NCBI GenBank assembly: GCA_024275145.1
Contig: JAJRZR010000075.1
Coordinates: forward strand, 1-33,113
Length of the DNA stretch: 33,113 nucleotides
Direction of reading: 5' to 3'
From: Deltaproteobacteria bacterium
GTDB taxonomy: Bacteria; Desulfobacterota; Dissulfuribacteria; Dissulfuribacterales; QOAL01
The position numbers were made by a program, and so were the translations under genes. The stretch's first letter is position 1, and each line of letters starts with the position of its first letter. The notes under the pieces are model-generated. The model did not search any database. It worked only from the letters and a program-made list of their open reading frames with translations, and had not been told where the DNA came from. Of this stretch, positions 17,473 through 33,113 are shown piece after piece.

Positions 17473-19569
17473 ATGAAAGATAATTCAAAATTTGTTTTTT
17501 TGCCTCCGGAAGCCAGTTTCCTTGCCAGGTTGTTCCTGGGGCTTATGCTCGTTTTTTCCTTGTTCCGTCTGGTCCTTCTTCTCAGGAACTGGTCACTGGC
17601 CGATGGTATCCCCGGGGCGGTCCTTTTTGAAAGCTTCATTGTTGGAGCCCGGTTTGACATGGCAGTGACCGGTTATCTGTTACTTCCCATTGCTGTGTGG
17701 TCATTATTGCCAGTCCTGGGTTGGCAGTACCGTGCTGGAACGGTACGGGCGATGCCTGCGCTCCTGTCGTTTTTGCTGTCACCGGTAATATTTTTGGGGC
17801 TTGCGGAGTCTGAATTCTACAGGGAATTCCACGACCGGTTCAATCAATTGGCGATACAGTATATTAGCGATGATCCGGCGACGGTTCTCAGCATGGTGTG
17901 GCATGGGTATCCGGTGCTGACATATCTTTTGGCATGGGCAGCCCTGGTATCGGTGTTGTATTGGTTCATAAAAAAGACAGTCCTCCCGGCAGGACTTCCC
18001 GTGTCCTTTTCACGTTCCGGGTATATAACCAGAACCTTTCCCTCGGTAATGATTGTGGTGATACTTTTGGTCTTTGGGGCCAGGGGGGGCTTTCAAAAAG
18101 GGGCCCCAATAAGGTGGGGGGATGCGTATTTTTCACGATATACCTTTGCGAACCATCTGGCTTTAAACGGTATGTTTACCCTCACAAGGGCGGTGCTTGA
18201 ACGGAAAAACAGCAAGACTGCCCGCTTCTGGGCCAAAAGATTGCCAGCAAGGGAGGCCCTTGAGATCACCCGTAAGATGGTCTTACAGCCAGGGGATCAC
18301 CTGCTCCTGCCCGATCAATATCCCCTCTTGAGGATTCCAGGGGACCAGGGGCGCTGGCTCTCCCTGGATCCTGTGCCGGAAAACGTTGTGCTCATCCAGA
18401 TGGAAAGCCTGTCCGCACAGTTTGTGGGGGCATTGGGGGCTAGCTACGGGGTTACCCCTGTATTCGATAGCCTTTCCAGGAAGGGGATTCTGTTCAGCCA
18501 CTTTTTTTCCCAGGGCACCCATACCCATCAGGCACTTTTTGCCGCCATGTGCAGTTTTCCGAATCTGCCTGACTACGAATATCTCATGCAGAACAGCCTT
18601 GGTCAGCAGCCATTCAGATCCCTGCCAGCAATTTTGAAGGCGCGGGGATTCAGAACCTTATATGTATACAATGGAAGTTTTACCTGGGACAACCAGGAGG
18701 GTTTTTTCAGAAATCAGGGGATCGAGAGGTTCATAGGCAAGGATGACTTCAAAAATCCCAGTTTCATGGACCCAACCTGGGGCGTTTCCGACAAGGATAT
18801 GTTTTTAAGGGGGGTCGATGAGATTGATCGGCTTAATAAGGATGGCAGGGTATTCGCCTTACTCCAGACCTTGAGTAATCATGCCCCCTTTGACCTGCCT
18901 CCCCCAGCGCCTTTCAATGGGATCAAGGGGCCGGATGCATTGATGCCAAGGCTCAATGGGATTCGTTATGGGGATTGGGCCCTTGGTAAATTTTTCGAGG
19001 AGGCGCGAAAAAGGCCATGGTTCAACAAGACACTGTTTGTCATCTACGGTGACCACGGGTTTGCCTTTGAACGGCCTAGGGCCATGATGGATTTGACCCG
19101 CCAGCACATTCCCCTTCTGCTCTATTATCCAGGTGATACCAGGCATGCCGGATTGGTGGTAAAAGAGGTTGGTAGTGAAGTGGATATACTGCCCACTGTA
19201 TTGGGGTTGCTGAATATAAGGGCCATCAACCAGGCTTGGGGGCGTGATCTGTTCAGGCCTTGTAATGAACCTGCCGGTTGGGCGGTTATAAAACCTTCTG
19301 GTGGGAACCCGACCGTGGCCATGATCGATGGTGGTGAGTTCCTGGTGGAGGCGCCGGGATTACGCCCGGTACTATATGACTTCAGCCTCTATCCCTGGAA
19401 GGTCAACCAGCTCACCTTGCAGGGTCGTTCAAGGCCGTCCATCCTCAAGAGACGATTAGAGTCCTATGTCGAGGTCGGCATCAGGACCCTCAAGGCACAC
19501 AGGGCAGGGGTCAGTGAAGAGGTGCTAAAGAATATTGTCCGCCACGGCGGTATGGCGGCCCTTCCTTGA
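17473..19569 (+). CDS. LtaS-type membrane phosphotransferase (sulfatase / alkaline phosphatase fold)
   Basis: This inner-membrane enzyme is 698 residues, with about five membrane helices in the first 210 residues and a large periplasmic sulfatase-fold domain from about residue 300. The domain has ENVVLIQMESLSAQFVG (metal-binding Glu), the nucleophile region SQGTHTHQALF with Thr349/Thr351, SNHAPFDLPPP, and the metal motif YGDHG (Asp527, His528). LtaS relatives move phosphoglycerol or phosphoethanolamine from phospholipids to envelope glycans. Upstream of msbA and LPS-type transferases, decoration of LPS or periplasmic glucan is the likely role; true lipoteichoic acid synthesis is unlikely in this envelope. 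Confidence 0.85.
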   Translation: MKDNSKFVFLPPEASFLARLFLGLMLVFSLFRLVLLLRNWSLADGIPGAVLFESFIVGARFDMAVTGYLLLPIAVWSLLPVLGWQYRAGTVRAMPALLSFLLSPVIFLGLAESEFYREFHDRFNQLAIQYISDDPATVLSMVWHGYPVLTYLLAWAALVSVLYWFIKKTVLPAGLPVSFSRSGYITRTFPSVMIVVILLVFGARGGFQKGAPIRWGDAYFSRYTFANHLALNGMFTLTRAVLERKNSKTARFWAKRLPAREALEITRKMVLQPGDHLLLPDQYPLLRIPGDQGRWLSLDPVPENVVLIQMESLSAQFVGALGASYGVTPVFDSLSRKGILFSHFFSQGTHTHQALFAAMCSFPNLPDYEYLMQNSLGQQPFRSLPAILKARGFRTLYVYNGSFTWDNQEGFFRNQGIERFIGKDDFKNPSFMDPTWGVSDKDMFLRGVDEIDRLNKDGRVFALLQTLSNHAPFDLPPPAPFNGIKGPDALMPRLNGIRYGDWALGKFFEEARKRPWFNKTLFVIYGDHGFAFERPRAMMDLTRQHIPLLLYYPGDTRHAGLVVKEVGSEVDILPTVLGLLNIRAINQAWGRDLFRPCNEPAGWAVIKPSGGNPTVAMIDGGEFLVEAPGLRPVLYDFSLYPWKVNQLTLQGRSRPSILKRRLESYVEVGIRTLKAHRAGVSEEVLKNIVRHGGMAALP

Positions 19570-19709
19570 GCGGTAGTAATGGTCTGGAAACGACAGATAT
19601 GGAAGTTGCCGTGAAAATATGGCCCACTAGGCAAGGCCTGTGTTTTTATGCCTGGCCTGGTACCCGTAGAGGCGGCCGGGAAGGCAGGAGGATTTAGGGA
19701 TATAATCGA

Positions 19710-21461
19710 ATGTTTTCGACGAGTTCATCGCTTTCACGTCCTGTGCTGGGCAAGGTCTATCGCCTGATACGTCCATACGTTCCCAGGGTAGTTCTGGCCA
19801 CCCTGTTCAGCCTGGCAGTATCAGGACTTAACGGGGCCATCGCCTGGCTGGTAAAACCTGCCATGGACAGGATTTTCATAGAAAAGCGCTATGAATACAT
19901 CTACATCCTTCCTATAGGTATCATAGTCCTGTATGTCTTCAGGGGGGCATGCAGCTTTGTCCAGTCTTATTTGATGAGAACCGCTGGGATGAAGTTGGTG
20001 CGGGATATGAGGAACCGCTTCTTCGCACACCTGGTGCATCTGCCGATGCCTGTAATTTCCCGTTCTACCAGTGGGGATATGCTCTCCAGGCTCATGAACG
20101 ACGTCGGGGCCTTGAGTGATCTGTTATCCCAGAGTTTCAGGACCTTTCTCATACAATTCCCCTCGGTGATCGTCCTTCTCGGGGTGGCGCTATACCGCAG
20201 GTGGGACCTTGCCCTTTTGAGCTTTATACTCCTTCCCTTCATTGCGATTGGGACCAAGGCATTAAGCCGCCTGGTAAGGAGGCGCAGGAAGCGCGTCCAG
20301 CGTTATCTGGCCATTTTGACCCACAGGGTCAGTGAGGCATTACAGGGGCTGAAGGTCATAAAGATATTCGGCATGGAGTCTGTCAAGGAGGAACAGTTCA
20401 ACAGGGAAAATATGACCGCCTACAGACAGATGGCCAGGGTAATAAGGTTGAGGGAAGGCACCAGGTTCTTCATAGAGTCATTGTCTGGCCTGGCCGTGGC
20501 GGTGATCCTGGGGTACGGAGGGAACCTGGTGGCCAAAGGGGCCATGACATCAGGGGATTTTTTCTCCATTTTGACCGCCATAGTAATGGCCTTTACGCCT
20601 CTTAAGAAACTGGGGCGCGCATATGGCCAGTTTCAGGAGACCATGGGCGTGATGGAACGGGTGGATCATTTTCTTGACCAGGAAACCGAATGTCAAGATG
20701 GGCGCATGATATCAGGCCTTGAGAAGGAAATAGTCTATGATGGCGTATCCTTTGTGTATTCTGGAAGTGAAACACCAGTGCTCTCCGATATAAAACTGTC
20801 GGTGCCTGCCAGGAGGATCCTGGCGATTGTGGGACCTAGTGGTGCAGGAAAGAGTACCCTGGTGGACCTGCTTCCCAGGTTCTATAATCCAACTTCCGGG
20901 AGGATCTTGTGGGATGGTGTGGACCTGAAAGAGCTTTCCCTTCCGTCTCTTAGAGGGCATATGGCCATAGTCACCCAGGATGTCATATTGTTTACCGATA
21001 CGGTCTACGAAAACATACTGGCTGGTAGGCCGAGTGCAAAACGGGAGGAGGTGATAAAAGCGGCAAAGGCTGCCCAGGCACATGGGTTTATCAAGGGCCT
21101 TCCCAAGGGTTATGATACCGTGCTCGATGAAAGGGGCCTCAACCTTTCAGGGGGACAACGCCAACGCATAGCCTTGGCAAGGGCTATCCTCAGGAATCCA
21201 CCACTTTTGATCCTTGATGAGGCAACGAGTGCGCTGGATAGCATGTCTGAAAAGGCGGTGCAGGAGGCCCTGGAGCATGTGATGCAGGGTAGAACGACCA
21301 TCGTAATAGCCCATAGGCTTTCGACGATAATCAATGCTGAGCAGGTGGCTGTGATGGATCAAGGCAGGATTGTAGCAATAGGGAGCCACCAGGAACTTAT
21401 GGAAAGGAACGATCTCTACAGAGAGCTTTACCAGAGCTGGGAAGGGAGCGGTATAAGTTGA
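19710..21461 (+). CDS. msbA: Lipid A export ATP-binding/permease protein MsbA
   Basis: This half-type ABC exporter flips lipid A-core across the inner membrane as a homodimer; 583 residues, normal for MsbA. Six helices occupy about residues 20-310. The ATPase part has Walker A GPSGAGKST near 374-382, Q-loop VTQDVILF, the signature LSGGQRQRIALARA, Walker B LLILDEATSALD and the switch His in IAHRLST. An AGGAGG lies about 20 bases before the ATG, further than ideal, but no better start is visible. Its stop overlaps the next start (TGATG). Confidence 0.93.
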   Translation: MFSTSSSLSRPVLGKVYRLIRPYVPRVVLATLFSLAVSGLNGAIAWLVKPAMDRIFIEKRYEYIYILPIGIIVLYVFRGACSFVQSYLMRTAGMKLVRDMRNRFFAHLVHLPMPVISRSTSGDMLSRLMNDVGALSDLLSQSFRTFLIQFPSVIVLLGVALYRRWDLALLSFILLPFIAIGTKALSRLVRRRRKRVQRYLAILTHRVSEALQGLKVIKIFGMESVKEEQFNRENMTAYRQMARVIRLREGTRFFIESLSGLAVAVILGYGGNLVAKGAMTSGDFFSILTAIVMAFTPLKKLGRAYGQFQETMGVMERVDHFLDQETECQDGRMISGLEKEIVYDGVSFVYSGSETPVLSDIKLSVPARRILAIVGPSGAGKSTLVDLLPRFYNPTSGRILWDGVDLKELSLPSLRGHMAIVTQDVILFTDTVYENILAGRPSAKREEVIKAAKAAQAHGFIKGLPKGYDTVLDERGLNLSGGQRQRIALARAILRNPPLLILDEATSALDSMSEKAVQEALEHVMQGRTTIVIAHRLSTIINAEQVAVMDQGRIVAIGSHQELMERNDLYRELYQSWEGSGIS

Positions 21462-22912
21462 TGCCGTATCGTCCTGTTTCTGCAATGGGCAGCCCGACTT
21501 CTGTTTCGGCCTGTATCGTACTGGCCGTCGGGCTCGTGGTGGTGGCATTTTTGATATTTTGGAACCTGGGCTGTGGCAGTATTGATTTGAGGGACGAGGC
21601 ATTGACCGCAGGGCGGAGTCTCTACGTGTATAAAACCCATGACATCCTGGGGCTCAAGGTAAACGGTGTATTATCTGTCAGGAAGCCGCCGCTTGTCTAT
21701 ATACTAACTGCAATTTCATATAGGCTCTTTGGCCTTAACGAGTTTGGGCTTAGGTTGCCCAATGCTGTGATGGGCCTCGGGGTGTTCTTTGTGGTCGCAT
21801 GGGGTGCACTGCGTACACTTGGGCCTGGATGGGCAAGTCTTTCCCCTTGGCTGTTGCTTGGCTGTTTCAATATATTCAGGGTTTCCAGGGAGGCGCTCAC
21901 GGATACCGGCCTTCTTTTGGGCCTGTCCATGGCCTTGATAGCAGGGTTTCTTGAGCTTTGGTTTAAGGATAATGGGGAAAAAACCAGGCGGTTGCCTTTA
22001 ATCTTCGGGATAGGGGTTTTTACAGCTACCTTCAGCAAAGGCCTTCTCGGTCTATATGCCCCTGCTTCCGTGTTGATAGCGTTTTTCCTGCTTAACAGAG
22101 AGCGCCTTGGGACCTATCTTCTGGTGTCCATCCTGGCCTCAGTCCCCTTGTTTGTCTGGATGGTTGCTGAGGCATTGAGCGATGCAGGCTTTATCTCCAT
22201 ATTCCTAGGCCAGGAGTACATGGAACGGTTGAACTATCGGTCCAGTTTTCTGACCCAGTTTATAAGGTCTCCCTTCTGGTATGCATCGAACATGTGGCGG
22301 TGGTTCAGGGTGACCGGCATCATGGCTATAGCCTTTGGTGTATGGCAGTTTTTTGCATGCCTTGGCAATTCCGGACTGCGCAATTCCCTGAAAAGGGTGA
22401 AAACAACCATCTGCCCGGCCTGCATATATCTCAATTTTGCCTGGTTGGGATATTTTTTAATGGTATCACTGGCGTCTCATAAGTCCAGGAGATATGTCCT
22501 GCCCGTATTCCCACTACTTACCTTGAGTTATCTGGTTGGTTTCAGAATGGTATGGAACGATATCATCCATAGGTCATCTCGGGCATTAGCTATTGTGTTC
22601 ATATGCGCCAGCATACTTGCAGGGGGGGTGGCCCTTGCGTCTCATTATAGGAAGGTCCCTGATTACCTGCCTGGAAGGAAGGCGGCTGCAATGGCATTGA
22701 GGGAATATCTAGACTCTGGATATGCAATCTACACCAATGACGATCATTTAGCCCCTATACTTCACTTCTATCTAGATACCATAGTGCCGGTGGTCTCAAG
22801 TACTGAAGACATCGAAGGAGAGAAAAATAATAAATGGGTCTGGGTCACAGACCATCCTGTAGATGGAGCAGGAAGGCTTGCTGGATACTATATTATTGTT
22901 CATTCACCGTGA
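21461..22912 (+). CDS. GT-C fold glycosyltransferase, ArnT/PMT-like
   Basis: This polytopic inner-membrane protein of 483 residues belongs to the ArnT / protein-mannosyltransferase superfamily (GT83-like), whose members use polyprenyl-phosphate sugars. The first helix (about 17-37) is followed by the periplasmic loop with acidic motif DLRDEALTAGRSLY and the KPPLVYIL segment typical of ArnT. The ATG at 21461 overlaps the msbA stop by one base. It probably adds a sugar or aminosugar to lipid A or core. Substrate unknown. It starts a tandem pair with the next gene. Confidence 0.83.
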   Translation: MPYRPVSAMGSPTSVSACIVLAVGLVVVAFLIFWNLGCGSIDLRDEALTAGRSLYVYKTHDILGLKVNGVLSVRKPPLVYILTAISYRLFGLNEFGLRLPNAVMGLGVFFVVAWGALRTLGPGWASLSPWLLLGCFNIFRVSREALTDTGLLLGLSMALIAGFLELWFKDNGEKTRRLPLIFGIGVFTATFSKGLLGLYAPASVLIAFFLLNRERLGTYLLVSILASVPLFVWMVAEALSDAGFISIFLGQEYMERLNYRSSFLTQFIRSPFWYASNMWRWFRVTGIMAIAFGVWQFFACLGNSGLRNSLKRVKTTICPACIYLNFAWLGYFLMVSLASHKSRRYVLPVFPLLTLSYLVGFRMVWNDIIHRSSRALAIVFICASILAGGVALASHYRKVPDYLPGRKAAAMALREYLDSGYAIYTNDDHLAPILHFYLDTIVPVVSSTEDIEGEKNNKWVWVTDHPVDGAGRLAGYYIIVHSP

Positions 22913-22927
22913 GATCATAAGGGGTTA

Positions 22928-24754
22928 ATGGAAACCACAAATAAACCAGATGCACGCAAATCTGCCTTTGCCGGTAGAAGTGGGGCAGATCGGGCACAGG
23001 AAGACACGTCCACAGTTTTGGGCCATGGTGCTCTGTTACTATCTATGGCCTTTTTGCTCCTGACCGCATCGTGGCTTTTGTTTTGCCATCTCGGGCTGGC
23101 ACCCTTGTGGAAACCTGAAGGCCGTGTTGCTGAGGTCGTACGGGAGATGTTCGTGAGGCATGATTTCATTCATCCAACATCGGGATGGATTCCACATGTA
23201 ACGAAACCATTGCTTCCTTACTGGTTGATAGTGGGGGTGTCCAAGCTGGCCGGTGGACTCAGTGAACTTACCATAAGGATACCGAGCGCCATGGCAGCGG
23301 TAATAGCAGTCCTTTCCACCGCTGTGCTTGGAATGAAATTGTTTTCCCCAAGGACAGGTTTTTATGGAGCGGTGATCCTTTGTTCTACCTATGGCTTTGT
23401 CCTCTGGGGTAGGTGCGGGGCAGCAGATATGCTGAGCCTATCTTCCATAGTACTTTCAGTGAGTTGGTACTGGTGGTGGCGAGAAAGACCGAATATCGTT
23501 GTGGCGGCCCTGTTCGGTTTTCTGTTGGCACTTGCTGCCCAGATGAAAGGGCTCGTAGGCATAGCCATTCCACTGCTTGTTATTGCCCCTGACTTGCTAT
23601 TTTCAGGACGATACAGGTCCATCCTGCGGCCTGGTCTGGTGATTTCCTTCCTGGCAGGTCTGTCTTTTTACAGCATACCCTTCCTTGTATCGGCACTTTC
23701 CACCCAAGTAGAAGGCTTTTCATGGTTTTCAAGGGCCGTGCATGAAAGTGTTACACGCTTTGTCCATCCTTTTGATCACGAGGGTTCCGTATGGATGTAT
23801 ACCTATTTCGTTCCCGTATGGATGTTGCCCTGGACCCCTGCCTTTCTCCTCTCGCTTTTTTTCTCCGTAAGGGATATTCGTGTTGCGGTATACGAAAAGA
23901 GATGGCTGATTATCGCTATTCTTGTAATATTTTTATTCTTTACCTCAGCCGGTTCACGCAGGAGCTATTATGTGCTTCCTATCATACCGTTTTGTGCCAT
24001 CCTGACCGCTGAGGTCCTTGGTACAGCCGTTGAAGGATGGAAGCCGGAGAGGATGAGACGGGTTTCCCTGGCAAGGATGATCATATGGCCTCAGTTGATG
24101 TTTTTTATTCTTGTTGGCATGGCCGAGATGGCTGCCTTTGTTCTGGGATACACCCTGCTTTCAGGTATGGCCTTGCCCTCTCAATTACTCACGGCAATGG
24201 CCCTTTCCGGTATCCTGGTACTTATTCCTTGCGTTTTTACACTTTTTTACCTTTTGACCAGCCAGAGGGGAGGGTCTCCCGGATATGCCATACTTTCGAT
24301 GTTGATTACCGGTGTCCTTGTCATTGGTAGCATATTTTGTATCCAGAAACCCGTGCTCGACCATCAGGCAACAGAAAAACCCTTTATCCTTGGCGTGAGG
24401 TCCTACCTGAACAGGCACAAGGAGGCCGTACCTGCCTATTTCCTCGTAGGGGCCAGGCCCCGAACTAGGCTCAGTTTCTACCTTGGGCGTAAGGAACCGG
24501 TCAAGGTGCTAAGGAGTGTCGAAGAGCTGGACAGGTTCCTCAGTACCCATAATTCATGGGTAATAATCTGTGTCAGGGAAGATGAGAAGGATATCCTTGA
24601 AGGATTCGGGAGGGCCGATATCACTTACAGGGTGTTGCTAGAGGAGACCACGCATCCTTGGGAGGGTTATCCGAAGGACATCTCGCTGAAGCGTCGGAAG
24701 AAATACCTGGCCTTTGTCACGGCATACAGGCATGATCCAGGGGATATATCTTGA
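22928..24754 (+). CDS. GT-C fold glycosyltransferase, ArnT/PMT-like (second copy)
   Basis: This 608-residue polytopic membrane protein is related in fold to the preceding gene but longer and clearly divergent. After a hydrophilic N-terminal stretch of about 35 residues come the first helix and the loop LWKPEGRVAEVVREMF, where the usual Asp-Glu pair is reduced to a Glu (PEGR), then VTKPLLPYWL. About twelve membrane helices are followed by a soluble C-terminal domain (about 490-600) with a Leu/Lys-rich alpha/beta pattern. AAGGGG precedes the ATG. The stop overlaps the next start (TGATG). Confidence 0.83.
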   Translation: METTNKPDARKSAFAGRSGADRAQEDTSTVLGHGALLLSMAFLLLTASWLLFCHLGLAPLWKPEGRVAEVVREMFVRHDFIHPTSGWIPHVTKPLLPYWLIVGVSKLAGGLSELTIRIPSAMAAVIAVLSTAVLGMKLFSPRTGFYGAVILCSTYGFVLWGRCGAADMLSLSSIVLSVSWYWWWRERPNIVVAALFGFLLALAAQMKGLVGIAIPLLVIAPDLLFSGRYRSILRPGLVISFLAGLSFYSIPFLVSALSTQVEGFSWFSRAVHESVTRFVHPFDHEGSVWMYTYFVPVWMLPWTPAFLLSLFFSVRDIRVAVYEKRWLIIAILVIFLFFTSAGSRRSYYVLPIIPFCAILTAEVLGTAVEGWKPERMRRVSLARMIIWPQLMFFILVGMAEMAAFVLGYTLLSGMALPSQLLTAMALSGILVLIPCVFTLFYLLTSQRGGSPGYAILSMLITGVLVIGSIFCIQKPVLDHQATEKPFILGVRSYLNRHKEAVPAYFLVGARPRTRLSFYLGRKEPVKVLRSVEELDRFLSTHNSWVIICVREDEKDILEGFGRADITYRVLLEETTHPWEGYPKDISLKRRKKYLAFVTAYRHDPGDIS

Positions 24755-25914
24755 TGAAGGATGGAGCCGGTTCCAGGAAAATCATGCGTGATGTTACCAT
24801 AATCCGCATGGATTGTGGATTGGGCCATGGCGGGGCAGAGCGCTATTGCCACTCTCTTTGTGAGGGGTTGTTGTCTTCGGGTTTCAAGGTCAGGCTCGTG
24901 GGGGAAAGATGTGACGAGGACCTTAAGGGATGGGTGGATTTCGTACCAGTGGAGGTCGTGAGGATCAATTCGGTCACAAGGAATCTTTCCTTCCATAGGG
25001 GGGTCCAGGCCGCGTTGAGGAGATATCCACATACCATATCCTACAGCCTTTCGCGCACCTGGCCAGTGGATATTTTCAGGGTTACTGACCCAATTCACCG
25101 TCATAGCCTGAGCCGGAAATACAGCAGTTTCCCTGGCAGGGTATGGAGCGCTATAAGTCCAAGGCACAGGGTTCTTTCAGGGCTGGAAAAAGGGGTCATG
25201 GGGCCGGAGGGGTGCAAGAAGATAATAACCATATCGGAGCTGGATAAGAGCTTGGTGCAGGAGTACTTCGGTGTTCCCGCCGAGAAGGTCACAGTGATAT
25301 ATAATGGCGTTGACCTTGAATATTTTGCTCCCTTGTCGCCAAGGCAGACAAGACGGATACGAATGGACCTAGGTGTCGAGGATGATGTCACCTGTTATAT
25401 ATTTCCTGCCATGGATTTCAAAAGGAAGGGGCTGGCTACATTACTTTCAGGGCTTGCGCTATTGCCGTTTCCCTGGAGGCTTCTGGTGGTCGGTAAAGGT
25501 AATGTCCGCAGGTTCAAAAGGATGGCGGCAGGGCTTGGGATAGGGGAACGTGTTCTGTTCCTAGGGAGGCGCAACGAAATGAGGGAACTCTACTGTGCAG
25601 CCGACTTGATGATCCTGCCCACTCTCTATGATCCCTTTGGCAATGTACATCTGGAGGCCCTGGCTTGTGGAACACCCGTTCTGACCACGGCAAACGCGGG
25701 GGGGGCAGAATCGATCATCCCAGGGCGTACGGGTTATGTGTTACGTGACAGCAAGGACGTGTTGACCCTGGTCCGCTATCTCTACGATTTTGAGCATAGA
25801 AGAGACGAATGGAAAACCTGGAGGGATAATGCTCGGAAAAGTGCCATGCAGTTTACCCGTGAAGAAAACATCCGAAAGACCATAGAGGTCATTGAAGAGG
25901 TATCGGGGGCCTAG
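24754..25914 (+). CDS. GT4 family glycosyltransferase, WaaG-like
   Basis: This cytoplasmic GT-B enzyme has 386 residues from the ATG at 24754; the in-frame TTG at 24751 is less likely because TGATG overlaps with neighbours are the local pattern and AGGGGAT is well placed. The donor domain has the GT4 motif LPTLYDPFGNVHLEALACGTPV with the E-x7-E type pair, preceded by LFLGRRNEMRELYCAADL. The N-terminal domain has GHGGAERYCHSL. The overall pattern is close to WaaG (RfaG), which adds the first outer-core glucose; the WaaP-like kinase directly after supports core assembly. Confidence 0.88.
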   Translation: MKDGAGSRKIMRDVTIIRMDCGLGHGGAERYCHSLCEGLLSSGFKVRLVGERCDEDLKGWVDFVPVEVVRINSVTRNLSFHRGVQAALRRYPHTISYSLSRTWPVDIFRVTDPIHRHSLSRKYSSFPGRVWSAISPRHRVLSGLEKGVMGPEGCKKIITISELDKSLVQEYFGVPAEKVTVIYNGVDLEYFAPLSPRQTRRIRMDLGVEDDVTCYIFPAMDFKRKGLATLLSGLALLPFPWRLLVVGKGNVRRFKRMAAGLGIGERVLFLGRRNEMRELYCAADLMILPTLYDPFGNVHLEALACGTPVLTTANAGGAESIIPGRTGYVLRDSKDVLTLVRYLYDFEHRRDEWKTWRDNARKSAMQFTREENIRKTIEVIEEVSGA

Positions 25915-25917
25915 GGA

Positions 25918-26745
25918 ATGTACAAGGTCAAGGCTGGTGACGATTTCATGCCTCCAAGCCATGAGGTCAGGTCCCTGGATTCGGGGAGATTGTTGATCAG
26001 GAGTGAATATTATGAATATTTCCAGTATGGCGGCCTTCTCACCTTTGAGGACATCTTCTTTCATCCAGGCCATGCCGTGGCGAAGTGTGCCGTTACCGAC
26101 AGGAATACGGTGCGCCTAGATCTTGGCACGGAATCTGGTTCAAAGCAAAGTTTTTTTGTCAAACGTCATTTCGATGATGCCCATGCTTCTGTTTCAGAAT
26201 GGCACGCCATGTGGCGTTTTCTCGAATTGGGCATAGCCGGTCCTGTCCCTGCTGCCTTCGGTTCCAATGGGAGGCATTCCCTAGTTGTCTCCAAGGGGGT
26301 CCACTACGACATGAAACTGAGTGAATGGGCGAGGGTAAATCTTTTGCCGGGTGTACCCCATCTAAAGGGAATCAGGTCGTTAAAATCGAGGGTTATAGGT
26401 TTGGTGGCAGAGATAGTTGGCAGGATGCATGCTGCTGGTATGAGTCATCAAGACCTTTACTTGTGCCATTTCCTGATGCAAGAGGGAAAAGGCGGGCCAA
26501 GCCTTACCTTGATTGACCTCCAAAGGGTGAACCTGTTCAAGAATCTTCCCATTAGGTGGCGGATCAAGGACCTGGCACAACTTTACTTTTCAGCCTCAAA
26601 TTACGTAACCATGCAAGATATTGATCTTTTTTGGAGGTGTTATATTTCAATATCTCCGGTCAAATTTCCCCGCTCTCTTCTATGGTTTATGATCCTTTTG
26701 AAAAGCTGGAGGATCAGGAGGCATACCGCCAAGCACAACCTCTGA
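25918..26745 (+). CDS. WaaP/RfaP-like lipopolysaccharide core kinase
   Basis: This 275-residue protein kinase-like enzyme phosphorylates an LPS core sugar (heptose or Kdo) using ATP. Seen motifs are FFVKRHF with the likely ATP-binding Lys82, Glu94 in SEWHAMWRF, the catalytic MSHQDLYLCHFLM (Asp179), and LIDLQRV (Asp200, the metal-binding position). These match WaaP, where HxDLYxxHFL is typical. It starts three bases after the GT4 gene. Whether heptose or Kdo is the target cannot be read from sequence. Confidence 0.85.
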   Translation: MYKVKAGDDFMPPSHEVRSLDSGRLLIRSEYYEYFQYGGLLTFEDIFFHPGHAVAKCAVTDRNTVRLDLGTESGSKQSFFVKRHFDDAHASVSEWHAMWRFLELGIAGPVPAAFGSNGRHSLVVSKGVHYDMKLSEWARVNLLPGVPHLKGIRSLKSRVIGLVAEIVGRMHAAGMSHQDLYLCHFLMQEGKGGPSLTLIDLQRVNLFKNLPIRWRIKDLAQLYFSASNYVTMQDIDLFWRCYISISPVKFPRSLLWFMILLKSWRIRRHTAKHNL

Positions 26746-26762
26746 TTTCGAGGTAAGTATAT

Positions 26763-27881
26763 ATGCGGATATTGTTTTTTATGGGGGTCTATCTTCCCCG
26801 GACCGGTGGTGTTCCCAGGAATACACACAATATGGTTATGCGCTTGAGGGATATGGGGGTGGATGTGGAGGTTTTGGCGCCTCATGAGGTTGGTGACAAG
26901 GATTGCAACCTGTCCTATCCAGTCTACCGGTATCCGCGTTGGCCTGTAAAACGATTATTTACCAGGGCATATCTTGCCTGGCTTTGGACAATCCTCAAGA
27001 GAAAAAGGATTGACTTGGTTCATTGTCATGGTGTAGATCCAGCGGCCTACTGTGCATCCTTCTTCAAATCCCTTTGTAAAGTGCCCTATATTGTTACCCC
27101 AAGGCGGACCAACCTGTTAAAGGTCCCTAGGCATATGCTTCACATACGAAGGAACAGGCGTGTGGAAAGGGGACTGTGCCATGCAAACTGTGTAACAGCC
27201 TTGAGCTCAGAGATCGCAAGGATTGTACGTGCTTGCGGTGTCCCGGAGGAACGGATTGTAATGATTCCCCATGGTATTGATCCTCTACCCTTTGAACGGG
27301 TCGAACCTATGAAGAGGTCAAGGCCCTATTTTCTGGCCTTGGGGCGTATGGTGGCCTTTAAGGGATTCGACTGCCTGATTAAGGCATTTGCCATGATCGC
27401 CGGGAAATATCCTGTAATCGATCTGGTAATTATTGGGAGCGGACCCAAGATGGCTTCCTTGAAGAGGCTTGCTGCCAAGATCGGACTGACCCACAGGGTG
27501 TTGTTTACGGGAAGGAAGGAGGGTATAGAAAAAATGGCATGGTATAAGGGTGCCAAGGCCTTTGTTCTTCCTTCAAGGCCTGGTAATGAAGGCTTTCCCA
27601 ACGTACTACTCGAGGCGATGGCCGCAGGCTTGCCGATTATAGCAACAAGGGTAAGCGGTGCGGAGGATGTTGTAATCCCTGGTGTTACGGGGTACCTTGT
27701 CCCACCATCTAACATAGTGGAACTCGCCAGCACTATGGACACATTTCTGGAAAATGAACAGGCAATAGAGAGACAGACGGTTAAGAAATACTTAGAACCC
27801 TACCATATCGACAGGATCATAGGGCGTTACAAAGGCCTTTATGAGAGGCTGTTGCGTCTTAAAGAGACGAATGCAGTTTAG
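26763..27881 (+). CDS. GT4 family glycosyltransferase
   Basis: This 372-residue GT-B enzyme starts MRILFFMGVYLPRTGGVPRNTHNM, a typical GT4 acceptor-domain N-terminus. The donor domain has ALGRMVAFKGFDCLIKAFA, VIIGSGPKMASLKRLA and the catalytic-region motif RPGNEGFPNVLLEAMAAGLPIIAT. GAGGTAAG precedes the ATG. It follows the kinase with a 17-base gap and is probably the next core or O-unit glycosyltransferase of the cluster. Sugar and linkage are unknown. Confidence 0.88.
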   Translation: MRILFFMGVYLPRTGGVPRNTHNMVMRLRDMGVDVEVLAPHEVGDKDCNLSYPVYRYPRWPVKRLFTRAYLAWLWTILKRKRIDLVHCHGVDPAAYCASFFKSLCKVPYIVTPRRTNLLKVPRHMLHIRRNRRVERGLCHANCVTALSSEIARIVRACGVPEERIVMIPHGIDPLPFERVEPMKRSRPYFLALGRMVAFKGFDCLIKAFAMIAGKYPVIDLVIIGSGPKMASLKRLAAKIGLTHRVLFTGRKEGIEKMAWYKGAKAFVLPSRPGNEGFPNVLLEAMAAGLPIIATRVSGAEDVVIPGVTGYLVPPSNIVELASTMDTFLENEQAIERQTVKKYLEPYHIDRIIGRYKGLYERLLRLKETNAV

Positions 27882-30384: not shown

Positions 30385-30837
30385 TCAGTCTGCCTGGACC
30401 ACCAGGATGGGACAAGGACTTTTTGATCCCAGTAGTTTTGTGGTGATACTGCCCATGGCATAATCCATTACACCGGTCTTTCCATGTGAGCCCACTACTA
30501 TAAGATCAGCATCTTGTGTGGTAGCGGCGTTAAATATCTCTTTTACCGGATTGTCTCCCTCCACTACAATTGCCTCGGCATTCACCCCTTTTGCTTTAGC
30601 CATGTCCTCGATTCTTTTCACTGCCTCTTCGCCTTCTTCCCTGAGACGTTCCAGGATGGTGGATTTCATTGGAATATACATGTCGGCAAGCTCCATACCT
30701 GCAAGGAATTCGAGAGCGTCTGCCACATAGATGCAATAAACATCACACTTCATTTGTGATGCCATGTCTATAGCAAAGGCCCCGGCCTTTTCTGCGGTTT
30801 CAGAGCCATCGGTAGCGATTAGGATTTTTTTGATCAT
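30385..30837 (-). CDS. Universal stress protein UspA family
   Basis: This 150-residue single-domain Usp protein starts MIKKILIATDGSETAEKAG and ends PCPILVVQAD. The ATP-binding motif G-x2-G-x9-G-S is present in VGSHGKTGVMDYAMGS, so it belongs to the nucleotide-binding Usp type. The ATG at 30837 is chosen over the longer frame to 30894 because AGGAGG lies seven bases upstream and the family N-terminus begins here. A perfect FNR-type site lies far upstream at 31366-31379, with repeats in between. Confidence 0.93.
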   Translation of the reverse strand: MIKKILIATDGSETAEKAGAFAIDMASQMKCDVYCIYVADALEFLAGMELADMYIPMKSTILERLREEGEEAVKRIEDMAKAKGVNAEAIVVEGDNPVKEIFNAATTQDADLIVVGSHGKTGVMDYAMGSITTKLLGSKSPCPILVVQAD

Positions 30838-31074
30838 GACGTTTCCTCCTTCTATAACGGTTTGATGTACACGTACTGCAGAGAATGTGATCATTCAATA
30901 GCTACAGTCAATGCCTTTTGGGCCCCTCCCAGTGTTCTGCCTGGTTTTTTCAGGTACTCCCCATATGTTTCTGAAAAGACAATATTTCTGTTTTCCCAAT
31001 GGTAGGAGTTCTAGTTTGGAGATGGGTATCGACTTGTATGTGAGATGTTTATACCAAGCCAATGAAGTCGGGGC

Positions 31075-31384: not shown

Positions 31385-31717
31385 TTAACCCGATGCCTTT
31401 AAAATGGCATCACGCAGGGTTCGTTTCGGTATGGCCTTGGAGAAGCGGCCCGCTTCGTTTGGATAGACCCGTCACCCTAATCCAAAGGCCTTTCTTGCTT
31501 CGGCATCCGGTTCGATATCGATTCCGTTGATCCTGATGGAGGGTGATCCCAGGAAGTTGATCCTTGCCGCCACTTCGTGGGTTGAGACGGTGATTTCACG
31601 TATCCTGGCTTTGATACCGAGATGGTCGGTTAGTTCATGCACCATGGCGATGGTACTGTCACGGGAGCTGCACCCAGGTGTAAAAAGGCATTCAATCAAT
31701 ATGGGGTTTTTTTTCAC
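31385..31717 (-). CDS. Small thioredoxin-like protein, candidate selenoprotein (in-frame TGA at codon 82)
   Basis: A plain reading gives 81 residues (31472-31717) ending FGLG at a TGA. Reading through TGA gives 110 residues with the tail RVYPNEAGRFSKAIPKRTLRDAILKASG before TAA. From memory of the family (small thioredoxin-fold proteins, some annotated as (seleno)proteins), the usual sequence here is FGLxCRxY, so TGA sits at the Cys position. The N-terminal half has LFTPGCSSRDST with a Cys pair (Cys10, Cys16), then FLGSPSIRINGIDIEP, the conserved GSPxxRxNG core. The start is GTG at 31717 with AAAGGAG five bases before it; the open frame upstream to 31837 is repeat sequence. The alternative is a nonsense mutation. 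Its partner or substrate is unknown. Confidence 0.62.
31442..31474 (-). promoter_or_regulatory. SECIS-like hairpin after in-frame TGA
   Basis: The UGA is at 31474-31472. After 15 bases the RNA forms GAAGCG-GGC-CGCUUC (31456-31442), a perfect six-pair stem with loop GGC starting 21 bases after UGA. Bacterial SECIS elements typically have the loop 16-37 bases after UGA with a G among the first two loop bases; both hold. Confidence 0.5.
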
Positions 31718-31852: not shown

Positions 31853-32680
31853 TCAGAAAGATTTTTCGGGAATATCCTGTTTCTGTTTGTCCAGGGCCAG
31901 AGACTCCACTAATGTGATGCCAGGCATTGGTTTTTCCCTTGCCGCCTCCATGAGTCTCTGATCTAGTGGGTTTAGTATCGCAGCGGTAAGGCCGATTGTC
32001 TTCAGTAACTTCAATACCGAGCAATGGAGCTGGGACCTTTTGCCCCTGGGAAGGCCGAGAGAAATATTACTGAGTCCAACTATCGTGTGAATTCTACTGG
32101 TTCTGAGTCTGGCTATCAAGGGTATCGCTTCGACAATAGGACCAAGGTCCATGGCGGTACAGGTAACGTCATGGGCTATAGGGTCTATTCTTGGCCTCAG
32201 TATCGGGTCAAGATAAAGCCTATCGATTGGGAAATCCCGCTTTTCAGCCTCTTCGATCACCTCTTCTGCCACGAGACATATTTCATCGGTCGTAGTAGGC
32301 AGGCAACCAGGTTTTACAAGGAGCACCACAAGGTTGGCCTCGAAGCAATTTGCTGCTGACATGGCCCTGGGCAGGGAGTCCGGGTCTGCTGTGACGGCAT
32401 TTATGGTCGGGCGCCCTCGATGAAGTTTGAGGCCCTCTGCCAGTCCTATGACATCCGCTGTAAAGAAGAGCTGCGTATCCACGGCTTCTTGTATTGCCTC
32501 AATTACCTTTGGCAGATATCTTCCGTACCTGCGTCCCGGTCCTAGATTGACATCCAGTGCCTCTGCTCCGGCCGTTGTTTGGACCTTTGCAAGTTCCTTT
32601 ATGGGATTGAGATTGCCTTGTTCCAATGCCTTGTAAACCATGGGATTCAAGACGTTGATCTTCTCGCCTACAACCAGCAT
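31853..32680 (-). CDS. Methyltetrahydrofolate:corrinoid methyltransferase-like (pterin-binding) protein
   Basis: This 275-residue TIM-barrel protein of the pterin-binding (DHPS / AcsE / MtgA) family starts MLVVGEKINVLNPMVYKAL. It has DVNLGPGRRYGRYLPKVIEAIQ, FTADVIGLAEGLKLHRGRPTINAV, LYLDPILRPRIDP and TIVGLSNISLGLP, the conserved Asp and Asn positions that hold methyl-THF. Such proteins move a methyl group between THF and a corrinoid protein. AGGAGG lies five bases before the ATG. A cobalamin riboswitch lies upstream on the same strand, which fits corrinoid use. No corrinoid protein gene is visible in the window. It is not a folP-type DHPS by sequence feel, but that cannot be excluded here. 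Confidence 0.85.
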   Translation of the reverse strand: MLVVGEKINVLNPMVYKALEQGNLNPIKELAKVQTTAGAEALDVNLGPGRRYGRYLPKVIEAIQEAVDTQLFFTADVIGLAEGLKLHRGRPTINAVTADPDSLPRAMSAANCFEANLVVLLVKPGCLPTTTDEICLVAEEVIEEAEKRDFPIDRLYLDPILRPRIDPIAHDVTCTAMDLGPIVEAIPLIARLRTSRIHTIVGLSNISLGLPRGKRSQLHCSVLKLLKTIGLTAAILNPLDQRLMEAAREKPMPGITLVESLALDKQKQDIPEKSF

Positions 32681-32924
32681 GTTCTCCTCCTATTCTATTC
32701 AACCCAAGTTAGACGTTATAAATTAGAGCCTAGGATAGCCCTGGATAACCAAGTTGCATAAATAAGTCCAGATATACGGGTAACCAGTGGAGACTAAAAG
32801 GAGAAATCGCGGAGGAAGCGCTGGAATCCGATAAAGATTTGGCCCTTGTCCAAAGAGCCTGACCTAAGGGATTGAAGACGATCCGGATCGGCCTTTAGCC
32901 TCGAAGCCACCCGTTTTTTACCCT
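32681..32924 (-). other. Leader between cobalamin riboswitch and methyltransferase
   Basis: This 244-base leader contains no convincing gene. Visible structures are GATCCGGATC near 32880 and CTGGA/TCCAG around 32751-32771 (plus strand). No T-run terminator was found, so control may be translational, at a distance, or by a terminator I could not see. Confidence 0.4.
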
Positions 32925-33113
32925 CGGGCCGGTCTCCCGGCTTGCGGATCAACCTACTTGCCGCACCTTCCCGTGAATACCCGTAAATAATCAAAGGGGG
33001 GCTTTCACAGTGGTTTAATAAGGTCTTTGAAAAAACGATTCCTTGTGCGGTTTTCGTACTCGCTTACGGTTGCGGGCCAGCGCCGGACTTTCACCGGACT
33101 TCCCGATTATCCC
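32925..33113 (-). ncRNA. Cobalamin (B12) riboswitch, 5' edge cut by window end
   Basis: On the minus strand the core is clear: GGGAAGTCCGGTGAAAG then TCCGGCGCTGG, followed by CCCGCAACCGTAAGCG (33077-33061 region), then a variable arm, CACGGGAAGG, and the B12 box AGCCGGGAGACCGGCC at about 32927-32942. All match the conserved order of cobalamin aptamers. Only the first P1 strand is outside. The nearest downstream gene on this strand is the methyltransferase-like gene at 31853-32680. Confidence 0.95.

Follow-up and report, generated by a model that had tools for sequence, protein, structure and literature searches.

A predicted DF-family selenoprotein gene with a proposed Cys16/Sec82 pair, and the spread of selenocysteine in its family

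The analysed stretch of 33,113 nucleotides, here called the window, carries near its right end a short gene interrupted by an in-frame TGA, together with neighbours that are shared with a second species of the genus. The features are as follows.

30385–30894, minus strand: universal stress protein gene, downstream of the DF gene; a conserved neighbour in the genus
31385–31717, minus strand: predicted DF-family selenoprotein gene, with GTG start, selenocysteine (Sec) at residue 82, 110 residues and TAA stop
31442–31456, minus strand: SECIS-like hairpin of six pairs (GAAGCG/CGCTTC) with loop GGC, 15 nt past the TGA
31472–31474, minus strand: in-frame TGA (Sec82), opposite Cys in most homologues by alignment column
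31670–31672, minus strand: codon of the Cys that is invariant in the alignment (Cys16), the proposed redox partner of Sec82
31853–32680, minus strand: methyltetrahydrofolate:corrinoid methyltransferase-like gene, upstream of the DF gene; order kept in the second species
32910–33113, minus strand: cobalamin riboswitch (82.6 bits), upstream of the methyltransferase-like gene and running off the contig end; also present in the second species

The DF gene begins with GTG at 31717–31715, closely preceded on its 5' side by AAAGGAG, and runs through 81 codons to the TGA at 31474–31472 and a further 28 codons to the TAA at 31387–31385. A preliminary description of this DNA had given an 81-residue frame, a TGA and 28 codons up to TAA; each of these details is exact, and the strand, which it did not give, is minus. 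Elsewhere in the window, positions 17473–27881 hold a run of envelope genes encoding an LtaS-like protein, an MsbA-like transporter, an RfaP-like kinase and glycosyltransferases.

The read-through protein matches the NCBIfam model NF049942, 'DF family (seleno)protein', over its full length (model positions 1–96 of 96; E 4.1e-29, 100.5 bits against a cut-off of 70), and it carries the C-terminal motif FGLx[U/C]RxY with Sec or Cys that marks the family. The first report of the DF family, under the name 'hypothetical protein DF', used the deep-Sep method (Xiao & Zhang 2025, PMC12013277), and a 2026 review lists it under 'Hypothetical protein DF' (PMC13188914). The original report described a Sec form in Desulfosediminicola flagellatus and Cys homologues, with no other TGA-containing homologue (PMC12013277). 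The preliminary description had proposed a candidate new selenoprotein, which is wrong: because of the full-length match and the 2025 report, the window gene is a new member of a known Sec/Cys family. Two broader thioredoxin-like models, Thioredoxin_3 (PF13192) and DUF2703 (PF10865), match most DF members weakly and have the thioredoxin-like fold in common with them; the window protein scores 14.9 and 22.0 bits, below the respective gathering cut-offs of 24.8 and 23.6. In contrast to these two families, DF has a single Cys in its N-terminal part and a Cys/Sec near its C-terminus rather than a CxxC. We found no paper joining DUF2703 with selenocysteine.

The distances given earlier are correct: 15 nt from the TGA to the six-pair stem and 21 nt to the GGC loop, which has a G early on. 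By itself this hairpin is unconvincing, because 38 of the 1082 TGA triplets of the window (about 3.5%) are followed by one that scores as well, and taken alone it is weak evidence for Sec insertion. Against a null of protein-preserving codon shuffles it reaches p ~ 0.025, a nominal significance only, and it folds no more stably than dinucleotide shuffles do, which gives no significance for this gene alone. Across the family, the same codon-shuffle test yields a combined Fisher p of 5e-11 for 23 Sec genes, a value that overstates independence because the sequences are related, while nine Cys homologues show no hairpin excess (p 0.80). The contrast between Sec genes and Cys homologues is the stronger point in favour of a SECIS element. 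By the codon-shuffle measure, a hairpin is lacking in one Sec gene (L027), and a few others are non-significant. Within one Sec clade (n=8), 87.5% of the helix cells are paired, compared with 39–55% when the helix is slid, and two pairs have changed on both sides, a covariation that consists of small counts. The precise pairing varies among Sec clades; the position of the hairpin and a G-rich loop are mostly common to them.

The genome that carries the window gene also encodes the machinery for which the preliminary description had proposed a search, namely selA (603 bits), selB (352 bits) and selD (379 bits), all above cut-off, and a tRNA-Sec with anticodon tca called by ARAGORN. Its selD has an in-frame TGA of its own near the N-terminus, in ERVKASGUASK. 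At locus L009 (G000:C57, 405–1469), the frame directly upstream of selD also crosses one in-frame TGA; instead of a selenoprotein, this may be a pair of distinct genes. In the window gene, SelB, the hairpin behind the UGA and tRNA-Sec would together insert Sec at residue 82.

We aligned the window protein with the products of 80 loci from named genomes. Among these 81 proteins, column 82 holds Sec in 21, Cys in 59 and Ser in one, and all rows that cover column 16 have Cys there. The Cys/Sec column expected at residue 82 of the homologues is thus present, and the TGA does take the place of a conserved Cys of FGLxCRxY, as had been proposed. Ser, neither Cys nor Sec, occupies the C-terminal redox column of the DF homologue from Candidatus Scalindua (L144). 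Terriglobus roseus has a homologue of the Cys type. The same-genus relative, a deltaproteobacterial MAG (WFZW01) of a second species, keeps the TGA, the TAA and the frame between them. Of the 28 codons after the TGA, 17 are identical in the two species, 5 differ synonymously and 6 nonsynonymously; past the TAA, the bases of the window and of the second species have no evident similarity. It is the homology, and not the hairpin, that rules out a chance origin.

These comparisons bear on two simpler readings. The TGA could be a true stop, giving an 81-residue thioredoxin-like product followed by a relic frame; this agrees with the ordinary use of TGA and with the frequency of equally good hairpins in the window. 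However, in many genomes conservation extends past the TGA as far as the TAA, most homologues have Cys at this column, and the genome holds the full Sec machinery together with a TGA-bearing selD. We regard a true stop as highly improbable. An error of sequencing or assembly could instead have turned a Cys codon into TGA, as is conceivable for a multi-contig assembly, but the same TGA recurs across many independent genomes, those of Desulfacinum hydrothermale DSM 13146 and D. infernum DSM 9756 among them, and we give such an error practically no weight. The conserved frame, the recurrent TGA and the Sec machinery lead us to reject both. The 110-residue selenoprotein put forward in the preliminary description is backed by the Sec/Cys column, the machinery, the conservation of the frame and the SECIS statistics of the group; machinery, hairpin and conservation together indicate that the UGA of the DF gene is almost certainly read as Sec at residue 82.

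Beyond the 21 Sec members in the alignment, we found 16 more. An order-level survey recovered a member above cut-off in 7 of 46 genomes, all with an in-frame TGA at the same column, and a sample across the phylum contained both Sec and Cys forms. In these searches a single-sequence query of genome contigs gave no match, while an alignment query gave matches. Judged from the TGA codons, Sec in the DF family is far more widespread than the one organism reported: set against the 2025 description, the predicted Sec form occurs here in several dozen genomes, two of them with TGA at both redox positions. The latter two (L032 and L034, in genomes G054 and G126 of one genus) have in-frame TGA codons at columns 16 and 82, with a weak hairpin behind the first, and are probably double-Sec proteins. 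In a tree of 100 rows, Sec and non-Sec must have replaced each other three times, a number also forced by its well-supported branches; the tree is arbitrarily rooted, has many open forks and gives no direction of change. As read from this tree, the family needs Sec and Cys to have been interchanged at least three times.

An AlphaFold2 model built from 52 aligned sequences, an input that left out homologues known only from genome searches, reaches a pLDDT of 88.8, and its elements follow one another as in thioredoxin-like proteins. The solved structures that match it best are thioredoxins, whose scores are middling (Z no higher than 9.1), and KaiB follows closely; the modelled DF fold is thus thioredoxin-like, with no close solved relative. 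Residues C16, G57-S58-P59, N64, G65 and residue 82 are invariant in the 52 sequences. The preliminary description had placed the Sec in a C-terminal redox position, apart from a CxxC-like N-terminal site. The first part stands, as the Sec lies in the C-terminal FGLxURxY; the second does not, since the N-terminal site has a single conserved Cys16. We propose that Sec82 of this motif would work with Cys16, where helix 1 starts, the two either forming a selenenylsulfide reversibly or serving together as ligands of a soft metal. Such a pairing, of either kind, seems rather likely.

A MerR-, MerT-, MerC- or MerA-like gene lies near the DF gene in 24 of the 80 loci, and some DF loci also hold a second small thioredoxin. 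All MerR-like genes start upstream of the DF gene and no more than about 1.3 kb from it, among them those at four loci (L067, L069, L070 and L072) whose Sec members are closely related to the window gene. Representative neighbours match the MerR, MerT, MerA and MerC models, several of them under the curated cut-offs, and the MerR, CueR and ZntR models score alike on the MerR-like regulator. One Cys-type DF member occurs as a fusion with a MerC domain. DF is not itself a component of the mer operon, and no mer genes adjoin the window DF gene, whose neighbours are the methyltransferase-like and universal stress protein genes; searches for MerA and HgcB in its own genome gave nothing above cut-off. 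Because many relatives lie with mer-type genes, the family most likely has its role in handling mercury or thiophilic metals like it, a role that we put forward tentatively. The link is a lead only, because the loci were chosen by query similarity and have no matched background.

Within the genus, the order of cobalamin riboswitch, methyltransferase-like gene, DF gene and universal stress protein gene is kept in the second species, with identities of 82% for the methyltransferase-like gene and 92% for the universal stress protein gene. The riboswitch of the second species is preceded by genes resembling a cobalt transporter. This collinearity would suit a selenoprotein that serves corrinoid or methyl-transfer metabolism in this genus rather than metal handling. 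However, the corrinoid neighbourhood was not recovered outside the genus and the recurrent DF neighbours elsewhere are of the mer type, so that we consider a corrinoid role unlikely. Among the first 20 relatives compared, no neighbourhood was conserved across them. The more specific picture of DF as a mercury- or soft-metal-handling thioredoxin-fold protein, with the distant Cys16 and Cys/Sec82 as its pair, repeated Sec/Cys swaps and Sec at both positions in one genus, is possible, although we hold it with little confidence. Overall, the best explanation of the locus is very probably a 110-residue thioredoxin-fold DF selenoprotein with Cys16 and Sec82 and a soft-metal lead.

The new results are how widely the family uses Sec, the three or more Sec/Cys changes that its tree needs, the members in which both redox positions are TGA, and the mer-type genes near many loci. 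As a whole, the comparisons give strong support to a selenoprotein family that was earlier known from one organism without TGA-containing homologues, and annotation ending at the TGA would wrongly shorten its genes. For this family of unknown function, Cys16 and residue 82 provide a testable pair of residues, and the mer-type neighbours provide a functional lead.
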